From Deltaproteobacteria bacterium (GTDB lineage: Bacteria; Myxococcota_A; Polyangia; Polyangiales; Houyiibacteriaceae): a DNA stretch of 37,062 bases. The notes under the pieces were generated by a model, which was not told the DNA's origin, did not search any database, and was given only the letters and a program-made list of their open reading frames with translations. Every line of letters starts with the position of its first letter. Position 1 is the stretch's first letter. Positions 9,385-13,497 of the stretch are shown in pieces. The position numbers were made by a program, and so were the translations under genes. The DNA is taken from the NCBI GenBank assembly GCA_013151775.1, contig JAADHO010000164.1:1-37062 (forward strand), written 5' to 3'.

Positions 9385-9933
9385 GTGAGCCCCGAAGCGA
9401 ACACTGACGTCAGCGACCTGCGGGCCATCGCGCGCGGAGATCGAGACGCCCTTGGACGCCTCTACGACCGATACGCGCCGCGCATGCTCGCCCTCGGTCT
9501 GGCCATCCTGCGCGATCGGCGCGAGGCCGAAGACATCCTGCACGACGTCTTCGTGCAAGTGTGGGAGCGCGCTGGCGACTACGATCCGCGGCGCGGGCGA
9601 GTGAAGACCTGGCTCTATCTGCGCATGCGATCGCGCGCCATCGATCGCGTGCGCTCGCCGGCCTACTCCAAGCGCCGCGCCTTGCCGACCAGCGCGACCT
9701 GGCTCACGGGCACCACGACCATGGAGGAACGCGGCGACCACGCGCGGCTGGAGGCGGCGCTCTCGGACTTGCCCACACCCCAGCGCGAGGTGCTGGTGCT
9801 CGGCTACTTCGAAGGGCTCAGCAACTCGGAGATCGCCAGCCGCCTCTCGGTGCCCCTGGGGACCGTGAAGTCACGCACCTCGGCGGCCATGGCGAAGCTG
9901 CGAGCACATCTTGGCACGGAGCTAGCGCTATGA
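9385..9933 (+). CDS. ECF-type RNA polymerase sigma factor
   Basis: A sigma-70 family protein of 182 residues with only regions 2 and 4, the ECF architecture. Region 2 spans about residues 18-85: LYDRYAPRMLALGLAILRDRREAEDILHDVF, then RGRVKTWLYLRMRSRAIDRVR. Region 4 spans about 118-178: LPTPQREVLVLGYFEGLSNSEIASRLSVPLGTVKSR, with the DNA-binding helix-turn-helix. It starts with GTG at 9385 directly before MSPEANTDVSD. The stop overlaps the next start (ATGA), so it is translationally coupled to a ChrR-type cupin, the arrangement of cupin-controlled ECF sigma factors such as RpoE-ChrR. Predicted targets are the DUF4331 genes downstream. Confidence 0.93.
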   Translation: MSPEANTDVSDLRAIARGDRDALGRLYDRYAPRMLALGLAILRDRREAEDILHDVFVQVWERAGDYDPRRGRVKTWLYLRMRSRAIDRVRSPAYSKRRALPTSATWLTGTTTMEERGDHARLEAALSDLPTPQREVLVLGYFEGLSNSEIASRLSVPLGTVKSRTSAAMAKLRAHLGTELAL

Positions 9934-10481
9934 ACTCAGGCACGGACGAGCTCAGCTCGGAGGCCGCCGCGGCGCTGACCTTCGCCGTCGACGACCTCGC
10001 GCCCGCGACGCCGCCCGCGCTGACCGATCTGCTGGCGGGGCTACCCACTCGTCGCCACGCGCGCTTCGTCGACGATGTCGCTCGACTGCTCGACGTGGAC
10101 TCCAGCTGCGCCGATCGGCTGCTCGGCGAGATCGACGACGCTGCGCGCTGGGAGCCCGGCTTCCTGCCGAACATGGAGCTTCTCCACGTCGACGGCGGCG
10201 CGAAGGTCACCGACGCCATCACCGGCTTCGTGCGCCTGCCCGCCGGCGCACACTTCCCGACGCATCGCCACCTCGGAGACGAGCAGGTGCTGATCCTGCA
10301 GGGCTACTGCCGCGAAGGCGACACGACGCTCGGGCCGGGCAGCATCATCACCAGGCCCGCAGGAAGTGAGCACAGCTTCGACGTGATCGAAGGCGGCTGC
10401 GACCTGCTCTACCTCGCCATCGTGCACGTGGGGCTCGAGCTCGGAGAGCTCGTCCTGCGCGCAGACGATCCCCGCGCCTGA
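9930..10481 (+). CDS. ChrR-type cupin, probable anti-sigma partner
   Basis: A 183-residue protein starting at the ATG that overlaps the sigma factor stop. The C-terminal half is a cupin: PAGAHFPTHRHLGDEQVLILQG gives the HxH and Glu metal ligands, and GSIITRPAGSEHSF gives the last His. In RpoE-ChrR systems the cupin domain holds a metal and senses singlet oxygen or peroxides, while an N-terminal zinc anti-sigma domain (HxxxCxxC) binds sigma. Here the N-terminal about 90 residues are helical but contain no HxxxCxxC; only a single Cys is seen (DSSCADR). Binding to the sigma factor is inferred from gene coupling, and the mechanism is probably zinc-independent in the N-domain. Confidence 0.8.
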   Translation: MNSGTDELSSEAAAALTFAVDDLAPATPPALTDLLAGLPTRRHARFVDDVARLLDVDSSCADRLLGEIDDAARWEPGFLPNMELLHVDGGAKVTDAITGFVRLPAGAHFPTHRHLGDEQVLILQGYCREGDTTLGPGSIITRPAGSEHSFDVIEGGCDLLYLAIVHVGLELGELVLRADDPRA

Positions 10482-10590: not shown

Positions 10591-11277
10591 ATGATGAGAG
10601 AGAAGACCTATCGCCGACGCGCAGCGGGCATGGCCCTGCTGCTCGCGGCTGTAACTTGGCTTGGATGGACACCTCCCGACGCGCGCGCCGCGGACCACGG
10701 CGAGGCGCCCGGTGCGGCCGCGGATCAGCCGGCGGATATCGCGGACTACTTCGCCTGGCACAAGGAGGACGGCGGCATGGTCGTGGTGCTGAGCTTCGCG
10801 GGCAACGTGACGCCCGCAGCAGGGCAGACGGGCACGTACGACGCCGATGTGCTCTACGGCATCCACTTCAGCGACAGCGGCTCCGCGGGCACGCCGGCCT
10901 ACGGCTCGACGCACGACATCTGGGTGCGCTTCGGTCAGAACGAAGCGGGCGAGTGGGGCCTCGAGGTGACGGGGCTGCCCGGCGAAGACGCGCCGGTGAT
11001 GGGCGCCGTCGGTACGGCCAACACCAGCGCCAGCGGCGCGCAGTTCTACGCAGGCCTGGCGGACGATCCCTTCTTCTTCGACCTTCAGGGCTTCGGAGAG
11101 CTGGTCTCCAGCGGCGACGCGACCTCCTTCGACAGCCTGCCCGGTCTGACAAGCACGCGTGACACGCTGGCGGGACAGAACTCCACGGTGATCGTGCTCG
11201 AGTTTCCTGCCGCGATGGTCACGAGCACAGCGGGAATGGTCCACACCTGGGCCACCAGCAGCCGGATCGGAAGCTGA
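10591..11277 (+). CDS. DUF4331 family protein, N-terminal half type, exported
   Basis: A 228-residue protein with a Sec signal peptide (basic MMREKTYRRR, hydrophobic core, Ala-rich cleavage region about ARAADHGEAP). The mature sequence follows the first half of DUF4331 proteins: DHGEAPGAAADQPADIADYFAW, VVVLSFAGNVTP, DADVLYGIHFSD, FFDLQGFGELV and a final VIVLEFPAAMV...TWATSSR. Full DUF4331 proteins are about twice as long; here the second half is encoded by the next gene with its own signal sequence. A strong purine-rich site (GAGGAGCG) precedes the ATG. Function is unknown; the family is periplasmic or secreted and often lies beside ECF sigma genes and TPR proteins. Confidence 0.82.
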   Translation: MMREKTYRRRAAGMALLLAAVTWLGWTPPDARAADHGEAPGAAADQPADIADYFAWHKEDGGMVVVLSFAGNVTPAAGQTGTYDADVLYGIHFSDSGSAGTPAYGSTHDIWVRFGQNEAGEWGLEVTGLPGEDAPVMGAVGTANTSASGAQFYAGLADDPFFFDLQGFGELVSSGDATSFDSLPGLTSTRDTLAGQNSTVIVLEFPAAMVTSTAGMVHTWATSSRIGS

Positions 11278-11280
11278 GAC

Positions 11281-12093
11281 ATGAACCAACTACTACGATT
11301 GAGCGTGATCTTGAGTCTCGTCTCGGCCCTCGGCTGTGGCGACGACTCGGCACCCATGGACTCGGGCACGGACACGTCCATGCCGGACACCGACTCGGGC
11401 GCGGACTCGTCCATGCCTCCCAGTGACTCGGGCACGGATTCGTCCATGCCGGACAGCGACTCGGGCATGGACGCCAGCGCGGATGGCGGCATGACCGGCT
11501 TCAGTTTCCGCAGCGACCTGCCCAGCGCCTACGCTCGTGTCGACCGCATGGGCATGCCAGCCGTGGCGACGGCGCTGATTCCGTCGGCAAAGAAAGACGC
11601 ATACAACGGCGTCGATCCCAGCGACGACTTCACCACAGCAGCGGGCGGCGCCTGCGCCGACCTAGTGAGCTGTCGTTGGGCCGGTGACTACGTCGCCAGC
11701 ATCACGGCCATCCATGGGCTGACCAACGCGGGCGGCATGACGCTGAATCAGCAGCTGCTTGGCCTCGGCCTCACAGCCTGCACCGACGGCGGCGCCTGCG
11801 CGACCCAGTTCATCTCGGGGACGAGCGGACCGGTGGTCGCGAACCTGGTGATCCCCGACGTGCTCAGCATCGACACCACGGTCGCCGCGGGCTTCCCCAA
11901 CGGTCGCAAGCTCAGCGACCCGGCCATGGACGTCACCCTCGCCGTGCTGCTCCTCGACATGAGCGTTCACAACCCGGGCACCTTCACCGACCTGAACGGT
12001 GACGGCACGCCTGGACCTTCTCTCAACCCGCTGGCCAACGACGTCGCCTTCGGCACGAGCTTCCCCTACGTGGCCGACCCGCACACTCCCTGA
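11281..12093 (+). CDS. DUF4331 family lipoprotein, C-terminal half type, with Asp/Ser-rich stalk
   Basis: A 270-residue lipoprotein beginning 3 bp after the previous stop. The signal peptide ends in the lipobox SALGC (Cys about residue 19). A stalk of imperfect repeats (about residues 24-66: DSGTDTSMPD, DSGADSSMPP and so on) links it to the body. The body matches the second half of DUF4331: AYARVDRMGMPAVATALIP, KKDAYNGVDPSDD, LVIPDVLSIDTTVAAGFPNGRKL, DPAMDVTLAVLLLDMSVH, and the terminal NDVAFGTSFPYVA. The mature protein is probably outer-membrane-anchored. It may assemble with the preceding half-length protein into one functional unit (inference). Confidence 0.82.
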   Translation: MNQLLRLSVILSLVSALGCGDDSAPMDSGTDTSMPDTDSGADSSMPPSDSGTDSSMPDSDSGMDASADGGMTGFSFRSDLPSAYARVDRMGMPAVATALIPSAKKDAYNGVDPSDDFTTAAGGACADLVSCRWAGDYVASITAIHGLTNAGGMTLNQQLLGLGLTACTDGGACATQFISGTSGPVVANLVIPDVLSIDTTVAAGFPNGRKLSDPAMDVTLAVLLLDMSVHNPGTFTDLNGDGTPGPSLNPLANDVAFGTSFPYVADPHTP

Positions 12094-12171: not shown

Positions 12172-13497
12172 ATGTCCAAGTACGCGAGCGTCTCGGCTCT
12201 CATCGCGCTCTTGCTCTTGATCGGGCTGGGCGTCCATACGCGCAGCCTCGCCTCCTCGAGGAGCGCCCCGGCGCCAGCGATCAGCACCGCGACCGACGCC
12301 TCACGCGCCGTCGCGCGTCTCGACTCGCAGATCGGGGTGGCGACGAGACAAGCCGAAGCTCACGCACGCTCGGCGGCGCCGCTGACTCGCCTCGCCGCCT
12401 TCCACGTGGCACGCGCTCGGCTCACGGGTCACTACGCGGACTACCTGTCCGCGGAGCGGGCGCTGGATCAGGCCTTCGAGCGTTCGGGTCCCGCGGGAGG
12501 GCCACACCTCGCGAGGGCGCGGCTACATTTCACGCTGCATCGCCTCGACGACGCGAGGCGTGAGCTGGAGCTCGCCACACCTGGTCTGGACATCAATTTT
12601 CACGTCGCCAAGCTCGACGCGCTGCGCGGAGAGATCGCCTTGGCCTCGGGCGAGTACGCTGACGCGCGCCAAGCGCTGCTGCGCTCGGAAGCCGTCCACG
12701 CGACCTCTGAGAGCGCCTTCCGCTTGGGACTCCTGGCAGAGCAGACTGGCGCCATGGGCGAAGCGGACCGGCTCTACGCTCAGGCCTTCGAGCGCACGCC
12801 CGCCAGCGCGCGACAGCCACGCGCGGCGATCCTGCGCAGGCGTGGACTGCTGAGCCTGAAGCGCGGACGCTACGACGACGCGGAGACGCTCTATCGGCAG
12901 TCGGACGAGCTCTTCAGTGGCGACTTTCGCACGCTCTCACGACGAGCCGAGCTCTTGGCCCTGCGAGGACATGTGCAGGAGGCCTTGGGGATCCTCCGCA
13001 GACTCGCGGAGGAGACGGACGAGCCCGAGCTGATGGACGCTGTGGCAGATATCTATCGCGCGCGCGGCAATCGTCGCGCCGCCGAGCCCTGGTTCGTGCG
13101 TGCTAGCGCACGCTACGAAGAGCGCATGGCGCTGCTGCCCGAGGCGACCTTGGGTCACGCTCTGCGGCACACCCTAGCGGGTGAAGACGCAGGCGAAGCA
13201 CTCGAGCTCGCTCGGCGCAACGTCGCGCTCAGACCCGGGGGCGAGGAGCGGATCTTGCTAGCTCAGGCGCTGGCCAAGGTGGGGCAGCTGGAGCAAGCGC
13301 GAAGCGTGCTCGTGGAGGTCGCCGCCTCGCCCTTTCAGAGTGCCGAACTCTTCGCGACACAGGCTGTCGTGCTGCGCGCGCTGGGGGAAGGTCGGGCTGC
13401 AAGCGCGGCCCAAGCTCGGGCGGAGGCGCTGCGTCCAGACGCGATGGATCAGCTCGCGTGGCTGGAGCAGGCGTCGGGAGCGAACTCTGGGCATTGA
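12172..13497 (+). CDS. TPR-repeat protein with N-terminal signal/anchor
   Basis: A 441-residue protein. Residues about 6-25 (ASVSALIALLLLIGLGVHT) form a signal anchor or uncleaved signal. The remainder is alpha-helical with tetratricopeptide-like pairs: HYADYLSAERALDQAFERSG, RLDDARRELELATPG, EYADARQALLRSEAV, GAMGEADRLYAQAFERTP, GRYDDAETLYRQSDELF, GHVQEALGILRRLAEE and GQLEQARSVLVEVAASP. Such proteins scaffold complexes. Genes of this type commonly follow DUF4331 genes, so it is probably part of the same ECF-controlled operon. It starts 78 bp after the DUF4331 lipoprotein and converges with the radical SAM gene, with 20 bp between stops. Confidence 0.8.
   Translation: MSKYASVSALIALLLLIGLGVHTRSLASSRSAPAPAISTATDASRAVARLDSQIGVATRQAEAHARSAAPLTRLAAFHVARARLTGHYADYLSAERALDQAFERSGPAGGPHLARARLHFTLHRLDDARRELELATPGLDINFHVAKLDALRGEIALASGEYADARQALLRSEAVHATSESAFRLGLLAEQTGAMGEADRLYAQAFERTPASARQPRAAILRRRGLLSLKRGRYDDAETLYRQSDELFSGDFRTLSRRAELLALRGHVQEALGILRRLAEETDEPELMDAVADIYRARGNRRAAEPWFVRASARYEERMALLPEATLGHALRHTLAGEDAGEALELARRNVALRPGGEERILLAQALAKVGQLEQARSVLVEVAASPFQSAELFATQAVVLRALGEGRAASAAQARAEALRPDAMDQLAWLEQASGANSGH

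Follow-up and report, generated by a model that had tools for sequence, protein, structure and literature searches.

The window, as we call the whole stretch of 37,062 nucleotides analysed here, belongs to a draft genome in 460 contigs and carries two consecutive ORFs with matches to DUF4331 (PF14224) on its forward strand (Table 1). The original prediction was that these ORFs are the two halves of a normally single-chain protein, and that both are exported, the N-half by a Sec signal and the C-half as a lipoprotein with a stalk of its own. The Pfam search agrees with this view. The N-half (59.2 bits) covers positions 2-236 of the model in two stretches and the C-half (55.4 bits) covers positions 250-421, both above the curated cut-off of 27 and without overlap, and thus the pair as such belongs to the family, while neither chain alone spans the 421-position model. 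An alignment of either half across the full domain was looked for with Pfam and was not found. A Pfam profile search of the source genome gave no further DUF4331 match, and no NCBIfam model matched the N-half or the C-half.

Table 1. Features of the split DUF4331 locus and its neighbours in the window
Feature	Position	Strand	Description or basis
ECF sigma factor	9385..9933	+	Pfam Sigma70_r2 and r4_2
ChrR-type cupin, probable anti-sigma factor	9930..10481	+	Pfam Cupin_7, 36.4 bits (cut-off 27)
DUF4331 N-half ORF	10591-11277	+	228 aa; Sec-type signal, soluble beta-sandwich domain
N-half Sec-type signal	about 10591-10689	+	judged by eye
N-half TGA stop (11275-11277) and one codon before the C-half ATG	11275..11280	+	same frame; sequence
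DUF4331 C-half ORF	11281-12093	+	270 aa; lipoprotein
C-half signal peptide and lipobox Cys19 (codon 11335-11337)	11281..11337	+	sequence
C-half low-complexity linker (stalk), residues 20-72	11338..11496	+	sequence; mostly pLDDT <50 in the joint model
DUF4331 C-half domain	11497..12090	+	Pfam PF14224 model 250-421, 55.4 bits
C-half segment GFSFRSDLPSAYARVDRM...	11497..11556	+	confident only with the N-half present
Two cysteines around a loop	codons 11779-11781, 11797-11799	+	permutation site in alphaproteobacterial relatives
Strand segment, PDVLSID region of the C-half	11857..11886	+	in alignments, forms the last part of an Ig-like sandwich of N-half strands
C-half C-terminal end, adjoining the conserved FPY motif	12067..12090	+	confident in the joint model only
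TPR-repeat protein; N-terminal membrane/signal segment judged by eye	12172..13497	+	Pfam TPR families; third gene of the cassette

The signal region of the N-half, judged by eye, reads ...TPPDARA/ADHGEAP. That of the C-half, also judged by eye, is MNQLLRLSVILSLVSALGC; roughly the next 50 residues have a high content of D, S, G, T, M and P. Its lipobox (SALGC) ends at residue 19 and is followed by Gly, which marks the C-half as a probable lipoprotein. Since both ORFs lie in one common frame, with only the TGA and one codon between them, a frameshift origin was rejected, as had been claimed from the start. A nonsense change is also excluded, because the stop, the signal and the lipobox are conserved across relatives.

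The split is not peculiar to the source genome. DUF4331 is present in 12 of the 33 genomes of the window's family and in 67 of the 144 genomes of the order, where the genes are of two kinds, both common: full matches to positions 1-421 (best up to 445 bits) and paired, weak partial matches. We compiled 121 loci, namely the window, 40 regions from genomes of the order and 80 named loci, which are the best 80 of at least 366 confirmed relatives from a scan of GTDB genomes with an N-half alignment. Adjoining N-half and C-half genes on the same strand were found in 114 of these 121 loci, where at least eight records occur twice, leaving about 106 distinct pairs. Of the other seven loci, five run into a contig end, L069 lacks a complete N-half and L095 encodes a single chain. 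Pairs of a soluble N-half and a lipoprotein C-half occur in Myxococcota, Planctomycetota, Gemmatimonadota, Gammaproteobacteria and Alphaproteobacteria. The rule of a signal with a lipobox Cys is satisfied by 71 of the 76 C-halves from the named loci (among the best 80 of at least 366), and in the remaining five the signal and lipobox are visible by eye. The junctions between the two genes are tight and often overlapping, including ATGA.

Some loci depart from this layout. At L069 (4551-6278), the C-half and the TPR gene are kept with a short remnant of the N-half (an open frame of 111 residues). Two Phenylobacterium genomes carry a second, divergent N-half/C-half/TPR cassette convergent to the first (L143:8692-11572 and L148:5969-9246). 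A Cys-rich domain lies between the linker and the C-half domain in L064, L072, L084, L085, L087-L090, L122, L174, L177 and L179, several of which belong to the sister group of the permuted clade described below.

The C-half of Alphaproteobacteria is circularly permuted. With a C-half model built from the loci of the order only, the colinear C-halves of the named loci matched as one segment in order (34/34), whereas all 42 alphaproteobacterial ones (36 Sphingomonadales and six Caulobacterales, among the best 80 of at least 366 relatives) matched as two segments in exchanged order, the first running from model position 99-147 to the end and the second ending at position 92-140. The worst E-values of the two segments over the 42 loci were 8e-16 and 1e-10. 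BLASTP between a myxobacterial C-half (L121) and that of a Sphingopyxis (L139) also gave two swapped alignments (63% identity over 87 columns and 54% over 82), and whole-genome Pfam matches agree with the swapped order (G392, G523). The N-halves are in order in all 42 alphaproteobacterial and all 34 other named loci. The two cysteines of GLTPC...CLAQ (window 11779-11799) flank the cut, and a disulfide may clasp the new ends there. In a tree of N-halves only, the permuted group forms a single clade (SH-aLRT 95) whose sister group consists of myxobacterial pairs, the majority of them with the Cys-rich insert. Judging from these sequences, the permutation of the lipoprotein half probably arose once, perhaps after transfer to Alphaproteobacteria. 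The permuted pairs keep the lipobox, the N-half neighbour and mostly the TPR neighbour, suggesting that the assembled shape matters and chain order does not. An already split protein is an unusual setting for a circular permutation.

To see how the halves may fit together, we compared one joint AlphaFold model of the window's read-through chain (468 residues, starting at the mature N-half) with one model of the C-half alone made with the same C-half rows. The joint model (mean pLDDT 75.7) places both halves together, with a nine-stranded sandwich in the N-half and a disordered linker. Its pTM of 0.79 is near the attainable maximum because of this linker, and we estimate that two unplaced halves would give a far lower value; the C-half alone reached a mean pLDDT of 62.8 and a pTM of 0.48. 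The gain is found in three places: the GFSFRSDLPSAYARVDRM segment (block pLDDT 94 and 82 in the joint model versus about 51-62 alone), the PDVLSID block (84 versus about 41-50) and the last block at the C-terminal end (90 versus 48). The placement of the halves rests on fold and not on coevolution between them, since few rows of the joint alignment are paired, with 4 of 53 extending over both halves.

Comparison by VIA gave V-type Ig domains with Z reaching 7.1 across about 120 residues, which is too low to indicate kinship. The rows listed are mostly antibody V domains with Z of about 7, which may mean only a common arrangement, and other families may lie beyond the listing. The VIA alignments, given by first and last residue only, extend from about residue 6 to about residue 398-405 of the joint model; the sandwich thus aligned has N-half strands except at its end, which corresponds to a C-half segment. 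Foldseek gave no match at E 0.001, and three sequence searches for a solved relative gave best E-values of 0.76 and 0.23 and no match, respectively. The models suggest that the C-half completes the N-half sandwich, and they are compatible with the earlier idea that the lipoprotein half may tether the soluble half.

With regard to the neighbourhood, an ECF sigma gene and then a ChrR-type cupin gene lie directly upstream of the split cassette, as in the known pairs of ECF sigma factor and ChrR cupin, such as RpoE-ChrR for singlet oxygen (according to the available text of PMC6852236 and PMC11832516). Unlike ChrR, the cupin of the window scores only 20.9 bits against the whole-protein model (NCBIfam anti_sig_ChrR, TIGR02451; cut-off 124.5), and it may be a different kind of cupin anti-sigma factor. 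An ECF sigma gene was found in 32 of the 114 split loci (21 of the 42 alphaproteobacterial ones) and an RskA-type anti-sigma gene in 21 loci, the alphaproteobacterial relatives having the RskA type in place of the ChrR cupin.

Of the 113 pairs that could be tested, 93 have the TPR gene directly beside the C-half. Among the 20 others, L099 has the C-half and the TPR protein in one ORF and L115, L129, L130, L136 and L141 have a TPR gene elsewhere in the locus, while the stretch read has none in the remaining cases. The ORF of L099 (4298-6286, 662 aa, in a one-contig genome) is a natural fusion of the lipoprotein C-half with the TPR protein. Single-chain DUF4331 genes of the order have HupE/UreJ_2 nearby in 13 of 15 regions and a TPR-like gene in 14, one of which belongs to a neighbouring split pair (L219); HupE is the more telling of the two, as the TPR model can match any TPR protein. 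At L219 (2849-10817), a split pair, a TPR gene, a full-length DUF4331 gene and a HupE gene stand side by side on one strand. The corresponding numbers for 11 single-chain regions of Pseudomonadota, with the split locus L298 set aside, are 7 for HupE and 6 for TPR-like genes, and the single chains L300 and L301 have neither nearby. HupE-type genes occur in small numbers per genome in 30 of the 33 genomes of the family. They are near the split pair in 31 of 114 loci (27/42 alphaproteobacterial, 3/38 in the order set and 1/34 other named loci), and both copies in the source genome are on contigs other than that of the split pair. Because single-chain genes are often near TPR and HupE/UreJ-type genes, the split pair probably occupies the slot of the single-chain protein. 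On the other hand, the sparse HupE and ECF sigma genes, the 20 pairs lacking an adjoining TPR gene and the bare single chains L300 and L301 count against a module.

The original prediction also spoke of a true gene fission. The part concerning separate and conserved genes stands, though the direction of the change is not proven. In a tree of joined halves and full-length chains, a branch (100) separates the full-length chains from the rest, and the permuted forms make up one clade (99). Nested inside the split clade are L282 (434 aa) and L283 (411 aa), two single-chain open frames of Alphaproteobacteria in which one half runs straight into the other. L281, a compact single chain, and L249 branch at the base of the split clade, the other side being all single-chain. 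Thus, the halves exist as one chain both inside and outside the split clade. This extended tree has no outgroup and its base is open, four of its branches are long and some are poorly supported, permuted rows were thinned by choice (42 to 14) and single-chain rows at random (44 to 24), and some records occur twice in the trees (L063/L121 and L064/L144 are identical). From these sequences, fission followed by some re-fusion appears to be the simplest story. The reverse, in which the two-gene form is ancestral and single chains arose by fusion, is doubtful but deserves serious mention: the unrooted tree of joined halves, in which a single branch divides single chains from split forms, would allow it, and L282 and L283 resemble fusions within the split clade, but the basal position of L281 and L249 opposite an all single-chain side speaks against it as far as those long branches can be trusted.

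Whatever the direction, the two genes might still not make a two-chain protein. That they are independent envelope proteins, sharing an operon by descent and not binding each other, is unlikely in our view. Each half is exported separately, the C-half of Alphaproteobacteria was rearranged and the N-half was not, and the fold scores of Foldseek and VIA are middling, all of which would suit independence; yet the model of the C-half alone is poor, with confidence dropping in precisely those segments that the joint model places well, single chains are nested in the split clade, and the pair is kept adjoining in nearly all loci. Read-through or suppression of the TGA, giving a single chain as well, seems very improbable despite the single stop between ORFs sharing one frame in the window: only 14 of the 114 pairs are in frame and 100 are out of frame, so read-through was rejected as the rule, and in the pairs read a second signal peptide and lipobox would sit in mid-chain. 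As for sequencing or assembly error or a decaying gene, a source genome in so many contigs might raise the suspicion, but the same layout with lipobox and ATGA junctions recurs in named strains and many unrelated genomes, and this conservation refutes it almost beyond doubt.

We therefore favour, with moderate confidence, an envelope protein of two obligate chains, in which the soluble half is completed and tethered by the lipoprotein half, within an ECF-sigma-linked module of TPR and HupE proteins. The N-half would be exported as a soluble beta-sandwich without some of its edge segments. The C-half would be exported as a lipoprotein, with a linker flexible enough to bring it to the N-half. 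The FSFRSD...RVDRM, PDVLSID and C-terminal segments of the C-half are predicted to dock on the N-half sandwich and complete it, and the lipid would hold the whole pair at a membrane. In an envelope module shared with the TPR protein and, in many relatives, a HupE/UreJ-type membrane protein, the pair would stand in for single-chain DUF4331. The module may be switched on by the ECF sigma factor under a ChrR-cupin (here) or an RskA-type (Alphaproteobacteria) anti-sigma factor. Tethering as the purpose, joint work with the TPR and HupE proteins and control by the sigma factor are what we infer.

Donor-strand assembly of beta-sandwiches is the principle of chaperone-usher pili. By analogy, one DUF4331 chain appears to supply edge segments to the sandwich of the other; unlike in the pili, both chains descend from one protein, and the likeness does not come from sequence comparison. 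The pair resembles single-chain DUF4331 in that both halves exceed the family cut-off, the order of parts is the same in Myxococcota and the slot is shared, the single-chain loci read having HupE and often TPR neighbours. It differs in being two polypeptides, with a second signal, lipobox and linker between the halves and with the permuted C-half in Alphaproteobacteria. Both gene fission and circular permutation have ample precedent, the latter in saposin/swaposin and transhydrogenases (as far as the available text of PMC3320104 goes). The alphaproteobacterial C-half is likewise the colinear one with two parts exchanged, but here the permutation affects just one chain of two, and that chain retains its lipid anchor at the N-terminus. 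A lipid-anchored split over several phyla with a later permutation of one chain is unusual. Searches for papers with DUF4331, PF14224 or HupE UreJ phrases found none, most subscription journals lying outside the search.

Finally, what looked like a curiosity of one genome emerges from these results as a two-chain envelope protein that is widespread and apparently unstudied. Our wider proposal, which we regard as evenly balanced between right and wrong, is that chain order is free in DUF4331: single, split and anchored, split and permuted (at the cysteine-clasped loop) and re-fused chains would arrive at one and the same sandwich, since an incomplete N-half receives edge segments from the C-half. 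The lipoprotein half would then act as a clasp bound to the membrane, and its TPR and HupE-type partners would form an ECF-controlled envelope complex with it. The series of split, permuted, re-fused and single-chain forms offers a natural test of how far a fold depends on chain order. Moreover, the split offers a practical handle on DUF4331, a family for which the searches made found neither a paper nor a solved structure.
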